Shown here piece after piece: positions 27,874 through 36,965 of a stretch of 64,000 nt of DNA. How positions within the stretch are numbered: position 1 is the stretch's first letter; every line of letters starts with the position of its first letter. The DNA is taken from positions 124,001-188,000 of the forward strand of contig NZ_JANKMS010000002.1 in NCBI RefSeq assembly GCF_024649945.1. The letters are read 5' to 3'. A model generated the notes under the pieces. That model saw only the letters and a list, made by a program, of their open reading frames with translations, did not search any database and was not told the origin of the DNA. This stretch comes from Flavobacterium panacis (GTDB lineage: Bacteria > Bacteroidota > Bacteroidia > Flavobacteriales > Flavobacteriaceae). The translations under genes and the position numbers were made by a program.

Positions 27874-28063
27874 AATATATTGTAGTAATTTTTTTTACTT
27901 TATCAGCGAGCAAAAATAATCAATATTAATTTAAAATGAAGAGCCTCAATTATTTTTATTTAAAAATAATACGTAGATTTTTTTTTGCAGGATTTACCTT
28001 AAAATATCTCTAAAAATCATCATTGAAATCGAATTAAAATAATCTAAGTATGATTTTTATCAT

Positions 28064-28089
28064 AATAAAAGACAAATTAGTCTTTTATT
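28064..28089. promoter_or_regulatory. palindromic operator upstream of nirK
   Basis: AATAAAAGAC (28064-28073), six bases, GTCTTTTATT (28080-28089): a perfect 10-6-10 palindrome. Close variants lie before norB and the Rrf2 gene. The right arm overlaps the candidate -7 box of nirK. Inferred binding site of the Rrf2 regulator encoded at 36450-36899. Confidence 0.65.
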
Positions 28090-28093
28090 TTTG
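28086..28093 (+). promoter_or_regulatory. candidate -7 element of nirK
   Basis: TATTTTTG fits TAnnTTTG, overlaps the operator by four bases and lies 34 bases upstream of the nirK ATG. The overlap is consistent with repression. Confidence 0.5.
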
Positions 28094-28127
28094 ACTCATA
28101 TTTAAACGAAAACAAAAACCAAGTGAT

Positions 28128-29573
28128 ATGAAAAGAAATTACAAAATTTGGACACAAATGAACATGATACTTTGTTCGTTTTTTATGATTCTTCTTTTAG
28201 GCAGTTGCAAAAAAGAGGAAGCCAAAAATTATGCAGATATTATGACTGAAGGAGAAATGGAAGCCGAGCTTACTTCGCCTCCTCATGTTCCTAAACCGGT
28301 TGGAAACAGAACAGCCATGAAATTAAAATTAAACATGGAAATCAAAGAACAGGAAGGTACCATGACCGACGGTGTAAAATACACCTACTGGACTTTTGGA
28401 GGTTCTGTTCCAGGAAGTTTCATCAGAACACGTGTGGGTGACGAAGTCGAATTTCATTTAAAAAATCATCCAGACAACAAATTACCACACAATATCGATT
28501 TACATGCCGTAACGGGTCCAGGTGGTGGAGCAACCTCATCTCTTGTAGCACCAGGGCATGAAAAAGTATTTAGTTTTAAAGTAATCAATCCTGGATTGTA
28601 TGTGTATCACTGTGCTACAGCTCCCGTGGGAATGCACATTGCAAATGGTATGTACGGATTAATTTTGGTTGAACCAGAAGGCGGACTTCCTCCTGTAGAT
28701 AAAGAATACTACGTAATGCAGGGTGATTTCTACACTCAAGGTGAATACGGAGCAAAAGGTCTACAGCCATTTGATATGAATAAAGCCGTAAAAGAAACTC
28801 CCGATTATGTTGTATTTAACGGAAAAGTTGGCGCTTTAACAAATGGAGGTGAATTGACAGCAAAAGTGGGAGAAACGGTTCGTTTATATGTTGGAAATGG
28901 TGGTCCAAACCTAGTTTCTTCTTTCCACGTTATTGGAGAAATATTCGACAGTGTACACGTTGAAGGCGGAAGTACAATAAACAAAAATGTACAAACGACT
29001 TTAATTCCTGCTGGTGGCGCTGCAATTGTAGATTTTAAAGTAGAAACTCCCGGAACTTTCATCTTAGTGGATCACTCAATTTTCAGAGCATTTAATAAAG
29101 GGGCATTGGGAATGTTAAAAGTGGAAGGAAAAGAAAATAAAAACGTTTACTCTGGAACTATTCAGGAAGGTATTTATTTGCCTGAAGGCGGAACAATTCA
29201 GAAAATGCCAGGGACTACGGCTGCAAAAACGGAGATTCCAAAACGAACTGTTGCAGAGAAAGTTAAAATTGGTAAAGAAATTTTCGGCACAACTTGTTTT
29301 GCCTGCCACCAATCTGAAGGACAAGGAATTCCGAATACTTTCCCTCCTTTGGCAAAATCAGATTATTTAAATGCCGATTCTAAACGTGCTATTAATACCA
29401 TTCTTCACGGTTTAACTGGAGAAGTAACCGTTAATGGTAAAAAATACAACAATATAATGCCTGCTCAGAATTTGTCTGATGATGAAATTGCAAATGTATT
29501 GACTTACATCTATAACAGCTGGGGCAATAACAAAACAGAAATCACTCCTGAAATGGTGAAAGCGTTACGATAA
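28128..29573 (+). CDS. nirK: copper nitrite reductase lipoprotein with C-terminal cytochrome c domain
   Basis: A protein of 481 residues that reduces nitrite to NO. The lipoprotein signal ends LLLGSC27. Two cupredoxin domains carry the type 1 copper ligands H121, C162, H170 and M175 and the type 2 ligands H126, H161 and H316. The catalytic D124 and H267 (SSFHVIG) are present. The [18 protein letters not shown] spacing, two residues shorter than in Alcaligenes-type enzymes, marks the clade II form. A C-terminal class I cytochrome c (CFACH, 390-394; likely axial Met in IMPAQ) is fused on for electron entry. It heads an operon with nirV and a SCO protein. The leader has an operator. Confidence 0.93.
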
Positions 29574-29589
29574 CAGCAAAACTAACAGC

Positions 29590-30369
29590 ATGAAAAAATA
29601 CATTTTCATACTAATAACTCTCTTTTTCTCTGTGTTTAGTGTCATGAAAGCCCAGGAAAAAGGAATGGTTTTCATAAAAGGGGGATCTTTTGTCCCTCTT
29701 TATGGAGCCGTTTCTAAAAATCCTGTTGTGGTAAAATCATTCTACATGGATGTTTATCCTGTAACAAACGCCCAATTTTTAGAATTTGTCAAAAAGAATC
29801 CTTCTTATCAAAAATCAAAAATTAAAGGAATATTTGCTGATAAAAGCTATTTGTCTTACTGGAAAAGCGATTTTAATTTTGGAAATGCAAAACCAAATTC
29901 ACCAGTTACAGGTGTTTCTTGGTTTGCTGCAAAAAAATATTGCGAATGCGAAGGAAAGCGTTTAGCCACAATGGACGAATGGGAATATGTAGCAATGGCC
30001 GACACCAAAAAGATCGATGCCAGAACCAAGAAAGAATTCAACGAATATATTTTGTCTTGGTATGAGAAGTCGAGAACGTATGAAAATGAAATTGGAAAAA
30101 CTTTCAAAAATTATTGGGGAGTTTACGACATGCACGGTTTAGTTTGGGAATGGACTTCTGACTTTAACAGCATTTTTTTATCTGGAGAATCTAGAAAAGA
30201 TAAAAGTACTGATAAAAATCTTTTCTGCGGAAGCGGATCAGTAAATGCATCTGATTTAATGGATTATGCCGCTTTTATGCGTTACGCTTTTCGCGGAAGC
30301 TTGAAAGCACAATATTCTACAAGAAATCTTGGATTTAGATGTGCTAGTACGACAAAACCGAAAATCTAA
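29590..30369 (+). CDS. nirV: NirV, SUMF1/formylglycine-generating-enzyme-like protein
   Basis: A protein of 259 residues with a signal peptide (about 1-21, SVMKAQ). FGE-sulfatase fold features: KGMVFIKGGSFVPLYG, SFYMDVYPVTNAQFLEFVKK, PVTGVSWFAAKKYCECEGKRL, WEWTSDF and a C-terminal TRNLGFRCAS. In many denitrifiers a gene of this family, nirV, follows nirK; its exact role in NirK maturation is not settled. It starts 16 bases after nirK and is 16 bases before the SCO gene, so it is clearly the same operon. Export fits action on the periplasmic enzyme. Confidence 0.85.
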   Translation: MKKYIFILITLFFSVFSVMKAQEKGMVFIKGGSFVPLYGAVSKNPVVVKSFYMDVYPVTNAQFLEFVKKNPSYQKSKIKGIFADKSYLSYWKSDFNFGNAKPNSPVTGVSWFAAKKYCECEGKRLATMDEWEYVAMADTKKIDARTKKEFNEYILSWYEKSRTYENEIGKTFKNYWGVYDMHGLVWEWTSDFNSIFLSGESRKDKSTDKNLFCGSGSVNASDLMDYAAFMRYAFRGSLKAQYSTRNLGFRCASTTKPKI

Positions 30370-30385
30370 TTTAAATTAGTTTAAA

Positions 30386-30982
30386 ATGAAAAAAATAGCA
30401 ATTGCTTTTCTTCTTCTCTTCGCATTTTACAGTTGTAAAGAAGCAGATAAAAAAGAAGCTAAAGCAGAAACAAAAAAGGAAATCAGCGATTTATCGATTT
30501 ATAATCTTCCTTCTAAATGGACCACACAAGATGGAAAAGATATCGAATTGAAAAGCCTGAGAGGAAACGTTCTGGTAATGGTTATGATTTATACGAGTTG
30601 TAAATCGGCTTGTCCGAGATTGGTTGCCGATATGCGCGATATTGAATCCAAATTGGAAAAACAAACCAAACAACATGTAAAATTGATTTTGGTTAGTATC
30701 GATCCAAATACAGATACTCCAGAAAGATTAAAATCGTTTGCCATTGAAAATAAAATGAATCAAGATCCTTGGATTTTCCTTCGTTCAACAGAAGAAAACA
30801 CTCGTGAATTTGCGGCAGTTTTAGCAGTAAATTATAAAAAAATATCGCCAATAGATTTTTCACATTCGAATATCATAAGTGTTTTTAATCCAGAAGGAGA
30901 ATTGGTTTTTCAACAAGAAGGTTTAGGTGTAAATAATGAGAAAACAATTGAAGCAATAAATATGGAAGCAGGAAAAATATAG
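30386..30982 (+). CDS. SCO1/SenC-type copper chaperone lipoprotein
   Basis: A protein of 198 residues with lipoprotein signal ending FYSC17. The thioredoxin-like fold has the copper-binding CxxxC in TSCKSACPR and the third ligand histidine in DFSHSNII. SCO proteins deliver copper or act as thiol reductases; next to nirK the likely client is the NirK copper centre. Last gene of the nirK operon, followed by an intrinsic terminator. Confidence 0.9.
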   Translation: MKKIAIAFLLLFAFYSCKEADKKEAKAETKKEISDLSIYNLPSKWTTQDGKDIELKSLRGNVLVMVMIYTSCKSACPRLVADMRDIESKLEKQTKQHVKLILVSIDPNTDTPERLKSFAIENKMNQDPWIFLRSTEENTREFAAVLAVNYKKISPIDFSHSNIISVFNPEGELVFQQEGLGVNNEKTIEAINMEAGKI

Positions 30983-31007
30983 ATATTTAAATAGGTTAAT
31001 TAGTAAG

Positions 31008-31048
31008 AACAAGAGTAGGTTTATGATAAAATCTGCTCTTGTTTTTTA
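31008..31048 (+). terminator. terminator of the nirK-nirV-sco operon
   Basis: AACAAGAG (31008-31015) pairs with CTCTTGTT (31036-31043) and is followed by a T-rich run. It lies 26 bases past the SCO stop codon. Confidence 0.7.
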
Positions 31049-31059
31049 TTTATAATAAA

Positions 31060-31244
31060 AGCTTCGGAGAAGCGAAATATCTATAGAAAACATTATTGCA
31101 CGTTATGTTATAGAACTCCAGCGGAGTGAGATATTTATATAAAAAACAAAACAGTCAAAAAAAAGAGCTTCGGAGAAGCTAAATATTTATAGAAAACATT
31201 ATTACACGTTATGTTATAAAGCTCCAGCGGAGTGAAATATTTAT
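31060..31244. repeat. two 79-bp direct repeats with AGCTTCGGAGAAGC and CTCCAGCGGAGTG ends
   Basis: Copy 1 (31060-31138) and copy 2 (31166-31244) are nearly identical over 79 bases. Each has an inner inverted pair, GCTTCGGAGAAGC, a conserved TATAGAAAACATTATT, and CTCCAGCGGAGTGA before ATATTTAT. Partial inverted copies follow at 31270-31294 and 31319-31345 (AAATATTTCGCTCCGCTGGAGC). The whole 31000-31395 stretch between convergent genes is made of this element and holds no gene. Confidence 0.85.
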
Positions 31245-31395
31245 CAGGTTAGAAAAAAATAACTTTTAGAAAATATTTCACCCAGCTGGGGCTCTCTAAT
31301 CTTTATTAAAACATTTTCTAAATATTTCGCTCCGCTGGAGCTTCTTTTCTCTAGTATCTTATTCTTCTATAAATATGTCATCCCTCTGGGACTTT

Positions 31396-32634
31396 TTACT
31401 TAATCATTAATTTATTTTCTAAATCATCAAACTTTAATTTTATCATTGATAACATAATTAAAATTAATCCCAAAACCAAAAGAATACTAAAAATCAAAAT
31501 ACTTTGAAAATATCCAGGAAGACTTCCTTCTCCAAAAAAGAAAAGCCAACCTTGAAGAAACAGCAAAACTTCGGTCAAAATATATCCCGAAATAAAGCAC
31601 TTCACTCCTATTTTTAATGAAGAAGAATTCGCAGAAAGCATTTTATTCTGAAGCAAAATTCCAAACAAAAATCCGGTGATAATTCCTAAAGTCGTTAAAT
31701 GAATAAATCCGATTACAAAATTTCTGATTTGATGTGAAACTTCGGCAAGATTTGAAAAAATAGTCAGCAATTGAATTCCGACTTTTAGCAATAAAGAACA
31801 CAAAGCCAAACCATAAACTATTTTAGTGGTTTTATCTAAAGCACTTTTGAAATGACGAATTTGCGGTTTAAGCATTTGATAGAAATAAATAAAAGCTCCC
31901 AATTGAAGCAAAACTCCTAAAGCGTTGACATAACTCAGAATATCATTTTCGATAAACCAGCGAACTGGAAAACAAACCGTTAAAAGTGTAGAAACAATCA
32001 TTAAAACATAAAACTTCTTAAACTTTACCTCATCCATTTTATTTTGAAATTGTTTTAAAAACAAAGCCAAAATCGCCAATATAAACCATCCATTAAATTG
32101 AAAATGAAGAAAAAACTGAATCGCAATTTGATAAAATGCACTTTGTTTTCCTAATGTACTTACAGCTGGTCCGAGACACCAAACTCCGAAAGTCGATAAA
32201 ATCATAAACAGAATCGAAACCAACAAAAGTCTTTGCGATGGTGATTTATCTCTTAAACTGTCTTTCCAAACCAAACGGCAAAAAACATAACTGAGTACAA
32301 TATGCATCGTTGAAAAAACAATCGAAAACAAAGCATACCCTTGAATTGGAAAAGCAATCATCATTCCGATTACTGAAAATTCTGTCAACCAAAACAAACG
32401 ATTATAAATAGGTTTCTGGCTTTTCTCTTTTGGAATAAAAAAATGAACAACCAAAACATAAACGATCATATAAACCCAGCCCAACATGGCAACGTGAGAA
32501 TGCGCATGAAGCAAAAAACTATAGTTTAGAAAATCTAATGGAAAAAGATACATAAACCGCATCAATAATCCGAAAACACAGGCAATCAGAAAATTAAAAA
32601 AACAGCAAAGTATCCAGCTTTTTTGAGAATTCAT
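31396..32634 (-). CDS. polytopic membrane protein, heme-copper oxidase-like or NnrS-like, in NO cluster
   Basis: A protein of 412 residues with about 11-12 transmembrane segments. Histidine-bearing motifs LLHAHSHVAMLGWVYM (about 42-57) and FLHFQFNGWF (about 188-197) lie within membrane helices and resemble heme- or metal-ligating helices of oxidase subunit I and NnrS-like proteins. No classical oxidase active site is complete. It sits next to ric and norB, and related proteins tend to accompany NO reduction in Bacteroidota. Role inferred only from context. I chose the ATG at 32634 because the earlier starts lie in an AACCATATAAGT repeat. Confidence 0.6.
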   Translation of the reverse strand: MNSQKSWILCCFFNFLIACVFGLLMRFMYLFPLDFLNYSFLLHAHSHVAMLGWVYMIVYVLVVHFFIPKEKSQKPIYNRLFWLTEFSVIGMMIAFPIQGYALFSIVFSTMHIVLSYVFCRLVWKDSLRDKSPSQRLLLVSILFMILSTFGVWCLGPAVSTLGKQSAFYQIAIQFFLHFQFNGWFILAILALFLKQFQNKMDEVKFKKFYVLMIVSTLLTVCFPVRWFIENDILSYVNALGVLLQLGAFIYFYQMLKPQIRHFKSALDKTTKIVYGLALCSLLLKVGIQLLTIFSNLAEVSHQIRNFVIGFIHLTTLGIITGFLFGILLQNKMLSANSSSLKIGVKCFISGYILTEVLLFLQGWLFFFGEGSLPGYFQSILIFSILLVLGLILIMLSMIKLKFDDLENKLMIK

Positions 32635-32648
32635 AATGTAAAGTTTTA

Positions 32649-32717
32649 AAACCATATAAGTTCATATAAGAAATTATAAGTTTGTTTTAAATGAACTTAT
32701 ATGACTTATATGGTTCA
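32649..32717. repeat. second AACCATATAAGT palindrome
   Basis: AACCATATAAGTTCATATAAG on the left and its near reverse complement ending CTTATATGGTT on the right. It is the same family as at 1311-1395. Confidence 0.65.
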
Positions 32718-32751
32718 AAAATTATCCGTTAAAATTAAGTTTTATTGAAAT

Positions 32752-32793
32752 AAAAAACACCGATAATTATCATATTTAGATATTATATCGGTG
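32752..32793 (-). terminator. terminator after ric
   Basis: On the minus strand CACCGATA pairs with TATCGGTG and is followed by TTTTTTA. It lies 26 bases past the ric stop codon and ends the norB-ric transcript. Confidence 0.7.
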
Positions 32794-32818
32794 CTTTCCC
32801 AACTATTAAAATTAACCT

Positions 32819-33550
32819 TTATTCTACTTCAACAAAATCTTTTTCTAAAATCACAGCTTTCGGAAATAAAATATTGTTTTCCAAATGAATGTGTTTGTGT
32901 AAATCCGCTTCAAACTCTTTCAGCATCGCAAAAGTTACTCTGTAAGTCGTACAAGCATCTGCTGGCGGAGTATAATTATCGGTTAAAGCTGCAATTTCTC
33001 TAAAACGTTCACCTTCATTATCATGCTCATGCATCATCATTGCAATCGGATTTGAAACAGTTCCGAAAGATGGTTGAGATAAAATTCCATCAGATTCTTT
33101 CGTTTTTACCATTCTTTTCACAAATGGAAATAAAACCAATTCTTCTTTTTTCATATGTTGTGATAATTCACCCGCGCAACCTTGGAACAATTCGTTAATT
33201 TTAAATAATTCTGGATGATTTGCTCCGTGTACTTTGCACAATTTATCTAAAAACGGAAGTAAAACATTTGTTTTTTCTTCCACATAACGGTGATGCGTTT
33301 TCTCAATATAATCTGCCAATAAATCTAAAGGCCATGAATTAAAATCGATGCTTCCGTTGTTTTCTGATTGCACAACTTGAAGCACATTTTCCAGTAAAGT
33401 ATCTGCATCAATATTTTGTTTTTCGCAAACTTCAGTTACTGTTCGATTTCCTTTGCAGCAAAAATCAATTCTATATTTTGAGAACACAGCAGCCGTTCTA
33501 AAATCTTCGGCTACAAACGATCCTATTGTTTTGTTTTTTAAATTTTCCAT
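32819..33550 (-). CDS. ric: iron-sulfur cluster repair di-iron protein (Ric/ScdA/YtfE)
   Basis: A protein of 243 residues. It begins with the ScdA-N domain, with IDFCCKGNRTVTEVC (about 28-42) holding a cysteine pair, then a hemerythrin-like domain whose metal-binding histidines appear in EKTHHRYVEE, MMMHEHDNEG and HKHIHLENNILFP. Ric repairs iron-sulfur clusters damaged by NO or peroxide. It starts 23 bases after norB, so it is co-transcribed with it. I chose the ATG at 33550; a TTG three codons upstream is less likely. Confidence 0.92.
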   Translation of the reverse strand: MENLKNKTIGSFVAEDFRTAAVFSKYRIDFCCKGNRTVTEVCEKQNIDADTLLENVLQVVQSENNGSIDFNSWPLDLLADYIEKTHHRYVEEKTNVLLPFLDKLCKVHGANHPELFKINELFQGCAGELSQHMKKEELVLFPFVKRMVKTKESDGILSQPSFGTVSNPIAMMMHEHDNEGERFREIAALTDNYTPPADACTTYRVTFAMLKEFEADLHKHIHLENNILFPKAVILEKDFVEVE

Positions 33551-33573
33551 GGTAATCAATATTAAATTTGTTT

Positions 33574-35808
33574 TTATTTTTTCTTTTTTAAGGTCAGTTC
33601 AAATACAAACCAAGCCATTGTAATAAATCCGATTCCGAAAATTGAATCTCCAATCGCACGAAGCCATTTTAAGGTAATCATTGTTGGCTGTTGCATTAAT
33701 TCTGATGAACGAGCGTACCACATTCCGTGATTGATACTTTCAACTGCTTGCCAAACTCCAATTGGTAATAAACTTAGAATTGCCATTAGGAATAAACCAA
33801 TATTTAAAGACCAAAAAGTAATTTTAAGTAGTTTGTTATTCCAGCTTACATTTCGGTATAAACTTCTTAGTACAAATAATACCAGACCAATTCCTAACAT
33901 TCCGTAAACTCCAAATAAAGCCGTGTGTCCGTGTAAAGGCGTTGTATTTAAACCTTGTACATAATAAAGCGCAATTGGCGGATTAATGATAAATCCGAAG
34001 ATTCCGGCTCCTAGGAAATTCCAAAATGCTACAGAAATCATAAAGTAAATTGGCCATTTGTAATCGGCAATCCATTGCGTTGATTTTGAGATTTTATAGT
34101 TTTGATACGCTTCAAATCCGATTAAAGTTAGAGGTACAACTTCCAATGCACTGAATGTTGCTCCTAAAGCCATAATTGCTGTTGGTGTACCAGAGAAATA
34201 TAAGTGGTGGAATGTTCCTAAAATACCTCCAGACATGAAAATAATCGTCGCAAAAAGTACATTTAAAGTCGCTGTTTTCGTTTTTAATAATCCCAAACGA
34301 ACAAACAAGAATGCAATTACAACCGTTGCAAATACTTCGAAGAAACCTTCAACCCAAAGATGCACTACCCACCATCTCCAATATTCGGCAATTGCTAAAT
34401 TGGTTTGTCTTCCCCACATTAATCCTGCCCCGTAAAACATTGCAATCGCGCTACAAGAAACTAAGAACAAAATGATTAGGTTTTTCTCTTCTGTTTTTTT
34501 CTTTAAAACTGGAAGTAACGGACGAACCATTAAAGCCAACCATAAAAACAATCCCACTAAAAGGAAAATCTGCCAGAAACGGCCTAAATCAACATATTCG
34601 TAACCTTGATGACCAAACCAGAAGTTTTGAACCAAGTTTAATTTTTGCATTACACCAAACCATTGTCCAGCCATTGAACCTAAAACAATAATCAAAAGCG
34701 CAATAAACAAGAAGTTGATACCAAAACATTGGAATTTCGGGTCTTTACCAGAAACCGCCGGAGCAATATACAATCCTGTCGCCAGCCAAGCTGTTGCAAT
34801 CCAGAAAATCGCTAATTGCGTGTGCCATGTACGTGTTACAGCGTAAGGCAAGATTTTATCAATCGGTATTCCGTACAAACCATTTCCTTCCACTCCATAA
34901 TGTGCTGTGATGATTCCGAAAACCATTTGTAAAACCATCAGCAAACTCACAATCCAGAAATATTTAGTCACCAATCCCATAGATTTGGTTTTTCCCTGCT
35001 TGATAAGCGGATCTTCTTTTGGTAACGGAAATTCTTCTTCTTCACCCGATTTTGCGTGATAGAAAACTAAAATCCCAACACTTAAAATCAATAAAATAAT
35101 ACTAACTCCAGACCACGCTAAAAGTTCTGTTGTGGCTGTATTTCCAACCAATTCATCAGAAGGCCAGTTGTGCGTATATGAAATATCTCCATCAGGACGA
35201 TTGGTAACTGTTGCCCACGTTGCCCAGAAGAAAAAGGCATTCATTTTATGCATTCTATCAACATCTGTAATAGAGTTTTTCGGAATCGCATAGTCGCCTC
35301 TCAGTTTATCAAATTTTGGATCATTCGTAAAAAGACCTTTATAATATTCACTTAAGTGTTCAATTGCTGCCAAACGGTTTTCAGAAATGGTTAGAATTCC
35401 TGTATCCGGATTATAGCGATTAGTTCTTACATCTTTTTGAAGACGAATTTTTAAAGCCGATTGTTTTTCAGCGTCTAATTCTTCATACTTCTTATTGAAA
35501 TCTTTTTGAGCATAAAGATCCAGTATAAAAACCGCCTCTCTGTGCAGCCAATCTGCGGTCCAGTCTGGGGCCACATAGGCGCCGTGTCCCCAGATAGATC
35601 CCACTTCCTGGCCTCCTATACTCTGCCAGATATTTTGTCCGTCTTTAATTTCGCTTTCGCTAAAAACAGCTTTACCAGAATCGGTTACAATTTCTTTTGG
35701 AATTGGTGGTGCCTGCTGATAGATTTCATAACCGTAATATCCAAGCACTGCAAATGATATACTCATTACCAATGCAAAAACTATCCATAATTTTTTTTCT
35801 CTTTTCAT
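33574..35808 (-). CDS. norB: quinol-dependent nitric oxide reductase (qNOR)
   Basis: A protein of 744 residues of the fused qNorB type: an N-terminal cytochrome-c-like extension (KDGQNIWQSIGGQEVGSIWGHGAYVAPDW) without CxxCH, followed by about 12 transmembrane helices with heme and iron ligands in RTWHTQLAIFWI, VVHLWVEGFFEVF, FHHLYFSG and HGHTALFG. It reduces NO to N2O using quinol and sits in the inner membrane. Electrons need no NorC, and none is encoded here. The start lies 14 bases from a palindromic operator. It forms an operon with ric. Confidence 0.94.
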   Translation of the reverse strand: MKREKKLWIVFALVMSISFAVLGYYGYEIYQQAPPIPKEIVTDSGKAVFSESEIKDGQNIWQSIGGQEVGSIWGHGAYVAPDWTADWLHREAVFILDLYAQKDFNKKYEELDAEKQSALKIRLQKDVRTNRYNPDTGILTISENRLAAIEHLSEYYKGLFTNDPKFDKLRGDYAIPKNSITDVDRMHKMNAFFFWATWATVTNRPDGDISYTHNWPSDELVGNTATTELLAWSGVSIILLILSVGILVFYHAKSGEEEEFPLPKEDPLIKQGKTKSMGLVTKYFWIVSLLMVLQMVFGIITAHYGVEGNGLYGIPIDKILPYAVTRTWHTQLAIFWIATAWLATGLYIAPAVSGKDPKFQCFGINFLFIALLIIVLGSMAGQWFGVMQKLNLVQNFWFGHQGYEYVDLGRFWQIFLLVGLFLWLALMVRPLLPVLKKKTEEKNLIILFLVSCSAIAMFYGAGLMWGRQTNLAIAEYWRWWVVHLWVEGFFEVFATVVIAFLFVRLGLLKTKTATLNVLFATIIFMSGGILGTFHHLYFSGTPTAIMALGATFSALEVVPLTLIGFEAYQNYKISKSTQWIADYKWPIYFMISVAFWNFLGAGIFGFIINPPIALYYVQGLNTTPLHGHTALFGVYGMLGIGLVLFVLRSLYRNVSWNNKLLKITFWSLNIGLFLMAILSLLPIGVWQAVESINHGMWYARSSELMQQPTMITLKWLRAIGDSIFGIGFITMAWFVFELTLKKKK

Positions 35809-35822
35809 CTTTTTTTTGATTC

Positions 35823-35848
35823 AATAAAAGACATTTTTATCCTTTATT
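35823..35848. promoter_or_regulatory. palindromic operator upstream of norB
   Basis: AATAAAAGAC, six bases, ATCCTTTATT: the same 10-6-10 geometry as before nirK with two mismatches in the second arm. It ends 14 bases upstream of the norB ATG on the minus strand. Inferred Rrf2 binding site. Confidence 0.6.
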
Positions 35849-35852
35849 GGTT

Positions 35853-35892
35853 TTTAAAAAAACTCCAAATCCATTTTCAGTATTTGGAGTCT
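35853..35892 (-). terminator. terminator after the azurin-like gene
   Basis: On the minus strand ACTCCAAAT pairs with ATTTGGAGT across an 11-base loop, followed by seven T. It separates the rrf2-azurin transcript from norB. Confidence 0.75.
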
Positions 35893-35899
35893 TTATTAT

Positions 35900-36427
35900 T
35901 TACTCAACAATTAAAACACCTTTCATCATGGCTACGTGACCTGGGAAAGAGCAAATAAATGGATAAGATCCTTTTTTATCAATTGTAAACTCGATTGTAT
36001 CTTCTTCTCCACCACCTAATAATTTAGTGTGAGCGATAACTGAAGCTTTTTCAGATTCTGGAATATAATCAGTTGCTTTAGCATCATTCGCTTTTAGAGC
36101 AAAAGCAGCTTGATCTGTTACTTCTTGTAAAATCACTAAATTGTGTCCCATTGCTTCTTTTGGAATTTTACCAACGTGTTTCAACGTCAATTTAATTGGT
36201 TTTCCTGCAACCGCTTTTAATTCATTTACATTAAACTGCATTTGGTCATTTCCTTCAATAACTAAAACATTTTCTTCAGCAGCTGGTGTTACTGGTGCAG
36301 CTTCTCCTTCTGTCGATGGCTCAGTTGTTTCTGTCTGATCAGCCGGAGCTGTTTCTTTTTTACCACAAGAAGTAACTGCTAAAAATCCCATTAGGATTAA
36401 TACTGAAATTTTGGTTTTTGTATTCAT
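35900..36427 (-). CDS. azurin-like cupredoxin lipoprotein
   Basis: A protein of 175 residues with a lipoprotein signal ending AVTSC21, a 30-residue linker rich in E, T and P, then a blue-copper domain. The type 1 copper ligands are visible as H in MGHNLVI, C and H in FICSFPGHVAMM, and a Met two residues later. Azurins pass single electrons between cytochromes and nitrite reductase; here the partner would be NirK or its cytochrome domain. It starts 22 bases after the Rrf2 gene, so both share a promoter and probably NO control. Confidence 0.88.
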   Translation of the reverse strand: MNTKTKISVLILMGFLAVTSCGKKETAPADQTETTEPSTEGEAAPVTPAAEENVLVIEGNDQMQFNVNELKAVAGKPIKLTLKHVGKIPKEAMGHNLVILQEVTDQAAFALKANDAKATDYIPESEKASVIAHTKLLGGGEEDTIEFTIDKKGSYPFICSFPGHVAMMKGVLIVE

Positions 36428-36449
36428 TTTTAAGATAATTTATTATATG

Positions 36450-36899
36450 TTAATCGTTTATATTTAGTGTTTTTAAAAAGAAATCTCCCGATTTTACGTC
36501 CGAAGCCAATTGTTCTAAAGTCGTTTTGGTGAGCATTTCCAAAAGCAAACTTCTTATTTTTTTAAATTCATGGTGAACGGGACAAGGATGTATTTCAGAA
36601 CATTCTTTAAGGCCGATTCCGCAACCACTGTAAATTTTATTTCCATCAATGGCATCTACAATTTGAATTAACTTTATGGACTTCGATGCTTCTGGGGAAA
36701 CTTCAAAACCGCCTCCTACTCCTTTTGCCGAATGAATGATGCCACTTTTGGTTAAAATCTGCATAATCTTGGCTGTGAACGGTTCTGGAGAATCAATCTC
36801 TTTCGCTACATCTTTTATTCCAACCCTAATTCCTTTTGAGGATTTGGTTGCAATAAATATTGAAGCTCTTATTCCGTATTCACACGCTTTTGAAAACAT
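36450..36899 (-). CDS. Rrf2-family regulator, NsrR-like
   Basis: A protein of 149 residues with an N-terminal winged helix (MFSKACEYGIRASIFIA start, VGIKDVAKEIDSPEPFTAKIMQ recognition region) and cysteines C93, C100 and C106 in SGCGIGLKECSEIHPCPVHH. The three-cysteine pattern fits [Fe-S] binding as in NsrR and IscR; spacing differs slightly from E. coli NsrR. In this cluster the obvious signal is NO. It would bind the palindromes before nirK, norB and its own promoter and repress them until NO damages its cluster. This control is inferred, not shown. Confidence 0.85.
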   Translation of the reverse strand: MFSKACEYGIRASIFIATKSSKGIRVGIKDVAKEIDSPEPFTAKIMQILTKSGIIHSAKGVGGGFEVSPEASKSIKLIQIVDAIDGNKIYSGCGIGLKECSEIHPCPVHHEFKKIRSLLLEMLTKTTLEQLASDVKSGDFFLKTLNIND

Positions 36900-36920
36900 A
36901 CATCCTTTATTAATTCTTTA

Positions 36921-36951
36921 CAAAGATATAGAGCTTTTATATAAAAGACAA
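36921..36951 (-). promoter_or_regulatory. promoter of the Rrf2-azurin operon
   Basis: Minus-strand TTG (36949-36951), 20 bases, and TATCTTTG (36921-36928) fit the Bacteroidota -33/-7 promoter. The -33 TTG sits inside the operator at 36940-36965. Confidence 0.6.
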
Positions 36952-36965
36952 ATTTATCTTTAATT
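36940..36965. promoter_or_regulatory. palindromic operator upstream of the Rrf2 gene
   Basis: TATAAAAGAC, six bases, ATCTTTAATT. It has the same geometry as the nirK operator, with three differing positions overall. It covers the -33 box of the regulator's own promoter, which suggests autoregulation. Confidence 0.6.

Follow-up and report, generated by a model that had tools for sequence, protein, structure and literature searches.

What switches on the nitric oxide (NO) genes of Flavobacterium panacis, and does the palindrome that recurs in front of them belong to the Rrf2 protein whose gene lies among them? The window analyzed here, a stretch of 64,000 nucleotides (contig NZ_JANKMS010000002.1, positions 124,001–188,000), carries this palindrome in the promoter of the nitrite reductase gene nirK (operator 1, 28064–28089; core, 28066–28087), in front of the NO reductase gene norB (operator 2, 35823–35848; core, 35825–35846), whose start codon lies 16 base pairs (bp) downstream, and in front of rrf2 itself (operator 3, 36940–36965; core, 36942–36963), where it would serve autoregulation. 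We found that the palindrome is real and that it is very probably the operator of the Rrf2 protein of the cluster, which would repress the NO genes until NO appears.

The first-pass annotation of the window had reported the same 10-6-10 palindrome at three promoters. The coordinates are exact and all three sites exist, but their sameness was slightly overstated: compared with AATAAAAGAC-N6-GTCTTTTATT, the palindrome is perfect, with no mismatch, at nirK alone, and the norB and rrf2 sites have 2 and 3 mismatches, respectively. With up to 3 mismatches allowed, this pattern matched the 64-kb window three times against 0.05 expected. The exact common part of all three sites is an 8-6-8 core, TWAARGAY-N6-RTCYTTWA, which was found three times in the window against 0.01 expected, a number reached by none of 100 shuffles. 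The whole home genome (5,959,941 bases, 37 contigs) has the exact core at three places only, before nirK, norB, and rrf2, and the core read backwards as a control occurs once. Loosening the core to one or two mismatches merely added look-alikes; at up to two mismatches, it gave 322 places, fewer than the 684 of the reversed control, so that weak matches are uninformative and were excluded from use. The longer 10-6-10 pattern at up to 3 mismatches gave 8 places genome-wide, namely, the three operators and five others, which appear chance-like because the reversed control itself gives 6.

The core also accompanies the rrf2 gene across the genus. When 150 Flavobacterium genomes were searched for the protein at an ortholog threshold of 112 bits, rrf2 was found in 61, and the exact core is present in 52 of these 61 against 18 of the 89 genomes without rrf2 (Fisher p 4e-23, not a true probability because the genomes are related); two or more core sites occur in 50/61 and 5/89, respectively. 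Core sites total 152 (0.58 per Mb) in the former group and 23 (0.08 per Mb) in the latter, whereas the reversed core, with 88 (0.34 per Mb) and 80 sites (0.29 per Mb), is nearly equally dense in both and therefore does not follow rrf2. Among the 23 rrf2-bearing genomes with complete site lists, 51 of the 68 whole-genome sites stand at NO or denitrification genes. Moreover, NirK scored above its cut-off in 47 of the 150 genomes, 46 of which have rrf2; 30 of the 47 gave loci, and 29 of these 30 nirK promoters contain a site above 14 bits, L252 having only a degenerate one. The scan of the genome and its relatives for hits before NO genes, proposed in the first-pass annotation, was thus borne out by all three exact sites of the home genome, by the 51/68 whole-genome sites, and by the co-occurrence (52/61 versus 18/89), and the contrary outcome, a palindrome at many unrelated promoters, did not occur.

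The same genes recur behind the sites of relatives. Sixty rrf2 contexts of the genus were fetched, with up to 20 kb each (one of them, L078, is the context of a different Rrf2 gene of the home genome). Upstream of rrf2, TTAATTAAAGATAAATTTGTCTTTTAT is kept with few changes in close relatives, and a palindrome sharing its core is present before several distant orthologs. A weight matrix of ten sites, seeded in part from the very loci it scanned, scored 96 sites higher than 16 bits across 61 loci, against 0.8 in first-order random sequence. These sites precede rrf2, norB (ric where norB is missing), nirK, nadA, and hmp, and lie also in the divergent norC/ric promoter; further stretches added sites at nirK in other places, at nosC-nosZ (L123), at two narK-like transporter genes (L119 and L126), and before nrdD divergent from nirK (L125). 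In all, the fetched loci hold 203 distinct sites above 16 bits, 186 of them before genes of the candidate NO regulon (rrf2, 46; nirK, 37; ric, 32; norC, 31; norB, 28; nadA, 6; nosC, 3; hmp, 2; nrdD, 1), a tally biased by the choice of loci mostly around rrf2. The candidate NO regulon of nirK, norB, and rrf2 put forward in the first-pass annotation is supported by both the position and the conservation of the operator.

A side observation concerns nadA, whose product, quinolinate synthase, is a 4Fe-4S enzyme. In five loci of the genus (L054, L057, L059, L062, and L063), the operator stands directly before nadA-nadB, and in the Aquimarina loci L184 and L213, a weaker one lies 55 bp before nadA. 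A link of NO control to the synthesis of nicotinamide adenine dinucleotide through this operator is possible.

Beyond the genus, the named loci (the best 80 of 544) span Flavobacterium, Myroides, Winogradskyella, Algibacter, Gelidibacter, Aquimarina, Formosa, Flavivirga, and others, and 77 of these 80 also encode ric, an NO reductase, a nos gene, or nirK. A sister form, roughly ATTnRGAYAAATTTRTCYnAAT, stands in the rrf2 promoters of marine genera. The inner core RGAY-N6-RTCY was found at −70 to −40 of rrf2 in 58 of 81 promoters overall and in 36 of the 41 from loci titled without "Flavobacterium", which include a few unclassified Flavobacteriaceae. Anywhere in the 150 bp before rrf2, the counts were 59/81 and 37/41, against shuffle averages of 1.16 (maximum, 5) and 0.48 (maximum, 4); other open reading frames had it anywhere in 15/467 and 10/250 cases and at −70 to −40 in one case each. 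Among the 16 Flavobacterium-titled loci without the core before rrf2, 12 have ric upstream of rrf2 and the site before ric, a site precedes norC or nadA in L198 and L214, and none is present in L201 and L217. In 22 of 30 loci taken from a phylum-wide search, some of them of the same genus, the core lies no more than 220 bp from rrf2; it is also present with rrf2-ric, and nosZ nearby, on a Tunicatimonas plasmid, and as TGTCGGATAAATTTGTCCGGCA in the promoter, richer in G and C, of rrf2-hmp on a Hymenobacter plasmid. When 299 genomes of the family were searched for the operator first, 65 places in 54 genomes were obtained against 19 in 18 for the reversed control (counted by eye). Thirty loci were returned from this search: in 17, the home genome and a congener among them, the site is immediately followed by rrf2, ric, norC, or nosC, 5 sites lie inside unrelated genes, and 8 stand before unlabelled genes or none. 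The first-pass finding stands and widens to an Rrf2 operator, with its candidate NO regulon, that is conserved in the Flavobacteriaceae and probably in more of the phylum. A profile of 24 Rrf2 proteins matched 353 of 395 genomes of the phylum (E ≤ 0.001), many of them weakly and probably through other Rrf2 proteins, and was not used as a distribution.

The position of the operator within the promoters was analyzed with the Bacteroidota promoter forms TAnnTTTG for the −7 element and TTTG for the −33 element. In the window, the −7 element TATTTTTG of the nirK promoter (28086–28093, plus strand) overlaps the right arm of operator 1, and that of the rrf2 promoter, TATCTTTG (36921–36928, minus strand), follows operator 3, which contains a TTTG fitting the −33 element; both have the TAnnTTTG form. 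This geometry is kept in relatives. TAnnTTTG starts +24 to +27 from the operator center, with the TTTG of the operator fitting −33, in 45 of 46 rrf2 sites; the same arrangement is found at 15/32 ric sites, and at nirK TAnnTTTG starts at +9 in 21/37. Before norB, the site is 10–17 bp from the start codon in the window and in L043, L045, L052, and L079, and elsewhere the called start overlaps the site. A scan for sigma-70 elements (TTGACA/TATAAT) was uninformative (39 found against 35.2 expected). The overlap of the operator with the −33/−7 polymerase site at fixed spacing argues for a repressor.

A second element lies upstream of the nirK operator. The FNR/CRP-type box ATGATTTTTATCAT (28050–28063, plus strand), a candidate activator site of a type found twice in the window against 0.17 expected, corresponds to TGAT-N4-ATCA boxes centered 20 bp upstream of the operator center at 18 of 37 nirK sites; at norC, such a box lies 57–59 bp before the operator in 14/31. 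The fixed box at nirK suggests a second, activating input and hence a two-input promoter. Six CRP/FNR-type matches were found in the home genome; the best of these proteins shows 54% identity to one near the clusters of relatives and is encoded 4.4 kb from nosZ, and a ATGATTGTAATCAT box stands about 60 bp before the cytochrome gene that precedes this nosZ.

The Rrf2 protein (36450–36899, minus strand), the candidate NO-sensing repressor, matches PF02082 with 81.3 bits (cut-off, 30), a domain also found in three other proteins of the home genome, and TIGR00738 with 79.6 bits (cut-off, 73.3), a model matched by 24/24 relatives at E ≤ 0.01. Its predicted structure (predicted local distance difference test score, pLDDT, 84) matches CymR (Z 15.6), IscR (14.4), and NsrR (7b0c; 13.3) over 114–129 aligned residues in a comparison covering part of the known folds. 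The first-pass annotation had called it NsrR-like, which agrees with its apparent job but not clearly with its family; the clade looks distinct from NsrR. The NsrR equivalog NF008240 gave 28.7 bits, far below the cut-off of 182, the operator is another one, and in the tree, which has long branches, a 27-member clade (96/98) stands apart from five NsrR-type proteins (100/95), IscR, and the SUF regulator. Approximately unbiased tests of its sister group did not single out any one of NsrR (p 0.314, not rejected), IscR (p 0.387), and the SUF regulator (p 0.328). The models for IscR (TIGR02010; 41.2 bits, cut-off 207.55), the SUF regulator (55 bits, cut-off 111), and RirA (43 bits) were likewise below their cut-offs.

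In 24 diverse members, C6, C93, C100, C106, and H109 are invariant, E7 is present in 23, and position 11 is Arg or Lys in all. Aligned with the Escherichia coli proteins, E7 and R11 fall at the positions of Asp8 and Arg12 in Streptomyces coelicolor NsrR, and the C-C-C-H set falls at the four ligand positions of IscR, given as C92, C98, C104, and H107 in the available part of PMC5411485. The spacing, C-X6-C-X5-C-X2-H, has a first loop one residue longer than that of E. coli IscR (C-X5-C-X5-C-X2-H), and the spacing of the three cluster-type cysteines (C93, C100, and C106), present in 24/24, is unlike that of E. coli NsrR. Six paralogs forming one clade have Tyr41 and Ser43 in the recognition helix, together with a promoter arm RTCCAY in 6/6 and TGGAY in 4 of the 5 readable cases. 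Position 43, occupied by Ala, Ser, or Gly in the Rrf2 clade, aligns with Glu43 of IscR, which is named as important for recognition in the accessible text of PMC9338935.

Two plasmid-borne genes were also noted. A member of this Rrf2 clade lies on a tet(X3) plasmid of Acinetobacter pseudolwoffii (NZ_CP084302.1, 5001–5447; L282), near predicted sul2 and dfrA36 genes and with a weak RGAY-N6-RTCY site upstream; the segment may be of Bacteroidota origin. A Dysgonomonadaceae plasmid (CP070277.1, 2501–2944; L287) encodes near two nnrS genes an Rrf2 protein that groups with NsrR, and therefore both Rrf2 types occur in Bacteroidota.

Presumably, an Rrf2 dimer with an iron-sulfur (Fe-S) cluster would bind the RGAY-N6-RTCY palindromes and, once bound, overlap the −33/−7 elements of rrf2 and nirK and sit just before the norB start codon, repressing these genes, its own included. 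NO would then attack the Fe-S cluster and the dimer would leave the DNA, allowing expression of the genes that produce NO, reduce it, repair Fe-S clusters, or serve accessory functions. In addition, nirK would need an FNR/CRP-type activator at the TGAT-N4-ATCA box, 20 bp further upstream, and such a two-input promoter would start nitrite reduction only at low oxygen with NO already present. A broader proposal, in which a separate, non-NsrR lineage of Rrf2 proteins would be the main NO switch of Bacteroidota, with the operator RGAYAAATTTRTCY built into the −33/−7 promoter of the phylum, is put forward tentatively, its chance of holding in full being slightly below even. It would comprise a ligand set of C6/E7 from one subunit and C93-C100-C106-H109 from the other, the two-input nirK gate with a CRP/FNR activator, an extension, in some lineages, beyond denitrification to NAD synthesis (nadA) and anaerobic ribonucleotide reduction (nrdD), and a clade of paralogs with a re-tuned helix (F41Y and A43S) and half-site (AARGAY to TGGAY).

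Several points weigh against the assignment of the palindrome to an NO-responsive Rrf2 repressor. Binding, repression, the Fe-S cluster, the NO signal, and the activator with its own signal are all deduced from sequence; the co-occurrence and site counts come from related genomes, uncorrected for phylogeny, and the weight matrix was built in part from loci that it then scanned. A large part of Flavobacterium has rrf2 without a site of its own, and the exact core is absent from 9 of the 61 rrf2 genomes, in part because their sites have diverged. Of 59 rrf2 contexts in the genus, 11 lack a site scoring above 10 bits; these comprise four paralogs whose arm is of the TGGAY type and seven unexplained cases (L051, L055, L056, L058, L060, L068, and L077). 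The other 17 of the 68 whole-genome sites are not assigned to NO genes: six stand at a distance of about 1.1 kb from rrf2, at the norB/ric place of relatives, where no annotation is given, one precedes a norB whose first gene is uncalled (L122), one precedes a NarK-like gene, and nine are elsewhere or unexamined. An Rrf2 operator was looked for near the home-genome nosZ on another contig, a plausible target, and none was found. One genome (G002, 99% complete; locus L277) has an intact nirK operator and only a distant Rrf2, which may reflect a recent loss of rrf2, an assembly gap, or another binder. Finally, L174, an ordinary member, also has a TGGAY left arm, so that the link between arm and helix is not strict; since the paralogs form one clade, and thus one event, the change of helix and half-site is a lead.

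How do other explanations fare against this evidence? Look-alike palindromes arising from the composition of AT-rich intergenic DNA might be suspected from the 322 genome places at up to two mismatches, a number surpassed by the reversed control (684). However, the three occurrences of the exact core in 5.96 Mb all fall into a single cluster, and the core is conserved across genera, even in the GC-richer Hymenobacter promoter; chance, rejected by the exact-core counts in window and genome, by the co-occurrence with rrf2, and by the positions in the loci titled without "Flavobacterium", is scarcely credible. That another protein binds the sites, either one of the three other Rrf2 proteins or one of the CRP/FNR family, with the neighboring Rrf2 as a bystander, would suit both the number of candidates (four PF02082 proteins and six CRP/FNR-type matches) and the site of G002 without a close rrf2. 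It is nevertheless very improbable, considering that the site co-occurs with this rrf2 and stands before rrf2 itself across genera, that the half-site is altered in the paralogs, and that the sequence of the FNR-type boxes, TGAT-N4-ATCA, is not that of the palindrome.

If the Rrf2 protein is the binder, it could still act by activation, as apo-IscR does at suf according to the available part of PMC5411485. Sites placed over −33/−7 or 10–17 bp before the norB start codon suit a block, however, and at about half of the nirK sites, the usual activator position is filled by an FNR-type box; we regard activation as improbable, only marginally less so than a different binder. A somewhat stronger, though still unlikely, alternative accepts the Rrf2 operator and replaces the signal with iron, cluster status, or redox in the manner of IscR or RirA, the NO genes responding indirectly. 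The resemblance of C-X6-C-X5-C-X2-H to the IscR spacing is in its favor, as are the SUF-regulator, RirA, and IscR scores, which exceed that of NsrR, all being below their cut-offs. By contrast, the labelled targets are NO genes (nirK, norB, norC, ric, hmp, and nosZ), no isc or suf operon was noticed at a site among the labelled genes, though no specific search was made, and E7/R11 mirror the Asp8/Arg12 pair of NsrR. Repression by the Rrf2 protein of the cluster, relieved by NO, is therefore the reading we prefer.

The genes around the three operators lie on both strands. On the plus strand, nirK (28128–29573), which encodes a copper nitrite reductase with a C-terminal cytochrome c domain (TIGR02376; 353 bits, cut-off 296), is followed in series by genes for an FGE-sulfatase-domain protein (29590–30369; PF03781) and an SCO1/SenC copper protein (30386–30982; PF02630), an order found again in relatives. 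On the minus strand, an azurin gene (35900–36427; TIGR02695, 106.3 bits, cut-off 105.1) separates rrf2 from norB (33574–35808; single-subunit NO reductase; PF22085 and PF00115), and norB therefore has an operator of its own behind the azurin gene. Next to norB is ric/ytfE (32819–33559, minus strand), for a di-iron protein of iron-sulfur cluster repair (TIGR03652; 244 bits, cut-off 205). No match to hmp above the cut-off was found in the home genome.

The minus-strand gene at 31396–32655 encodes a 419-residue membrane protein that recurs beside ric/rrf2 in the NO clusters of relatives. This protein and five relatives had no Pfam match at E ≤ 1, and a sequence search of the PDB was without match. 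Its predicted model (pLDDT 90.6), however, has the fold of heme-copper oxidase subunit I, matching cbb3 oxidase with Z 34.3 over 405 residues and cNOR with Z 33.0, at about 10% identity. In 23 members, His52, His184, and His319 are invariant and His50 and His54 nearly so; the helix VII His pair of the oxidases seems to be absent. The role of the protein may perhaps be that of NnrS in NsrR regulons.

Clade II nosZ acts as a biological sink for nitrous oxide, a greenhouse gas, and Bacteroidota are among its major carriers. Little was found on the control of their denitrification: for the Rrf2 genes that adjoin clade II nos clusters in this phylum, the available part of PMC6264515 describes the neighborhood only, giving neither an operator nor a regulon, and calls their role difficult to predict, and the accessible text of PMC3534657 likewise gives only the neighborhood of an Rrf2 gene beside the nos cluster of Melioribacter. 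Beyond these two notes, no report of this operator, or of NO genes controlled by Rrf2 in Bacteroidota, was found among the open-access titles inspected, subscription journals and regulon databases such as RegPrecise being outside the scope. Judged by genome position, these Rrf2 genes probably encode the same kind of regulator. With a defined operator and a named regulator, denitrification control in Bacteroidota becomes directly testable, NO regulons could be read off their genomes from sequence, and the paralogs with altered helix and half-site would offer a natural case of a change in Rrf2 specificity.

Among known systems, HcpR of Bacteroides and Porphyromonas is likewise a predicted nitrosative-stress regulator of Bacteroidota. 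Within the sections of PMC1274295 available, however, it belongs to the CRP/FNR family, its predicted regulon is hcp only, and its operator is GTAACnnnnGTTAC in most HcpR2 genomes, P. gingivalis having a different form; the NsrR part of the same paper deals with proteobacteria, bacilli, and actinobacteria, and its Bacteroides passages concern HcpR. IscR, RirA, and the SUF regulators share with the present protein the Rrf2 fold and the Cys3-His ligand-type spacing, whereas their targets are Fe-S assembly or iron uptake and the labelled targets here belong to NO metabolism. The NsrR regulon of proteobacteria, Bacillus, and Streptomyces is closest in function. As described in the same part of PMC1274295, it too has an Rrf2-family regulator with a palindromic operator, and its targets, hmp, nirK, norB, and ytfE/ric, resemble the genes preceded by candidate operators here (nirK, norB, ric, hmp, and nosC); enterobacterial hcp even has an FNR-like site upstream of the NsrR operator, as nirK has its box here. 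The operators themselves differ, gATGyAT-N5-ATrCATc for NsrR against RGAY-N6-RTCY: with up to 3 mismatches, the former occurred 8 times in the window against 9.0 expected, none of them at the three promoters, and it did no better than shuffled sequence in the operator contexts of relatives. The ligands differ as well, since NsrR of S. coelicolor is given three Cys and Asp8 with Arg12 as partner in the available text of PMC5411485, in contrast to C-X6-C-X5-C-X2-H and an invariant C6 in the present protein. Collectively, the Rrf2 system of F. panacis and its relatives, while not shown to be NsrR, appears to work like NsrR.

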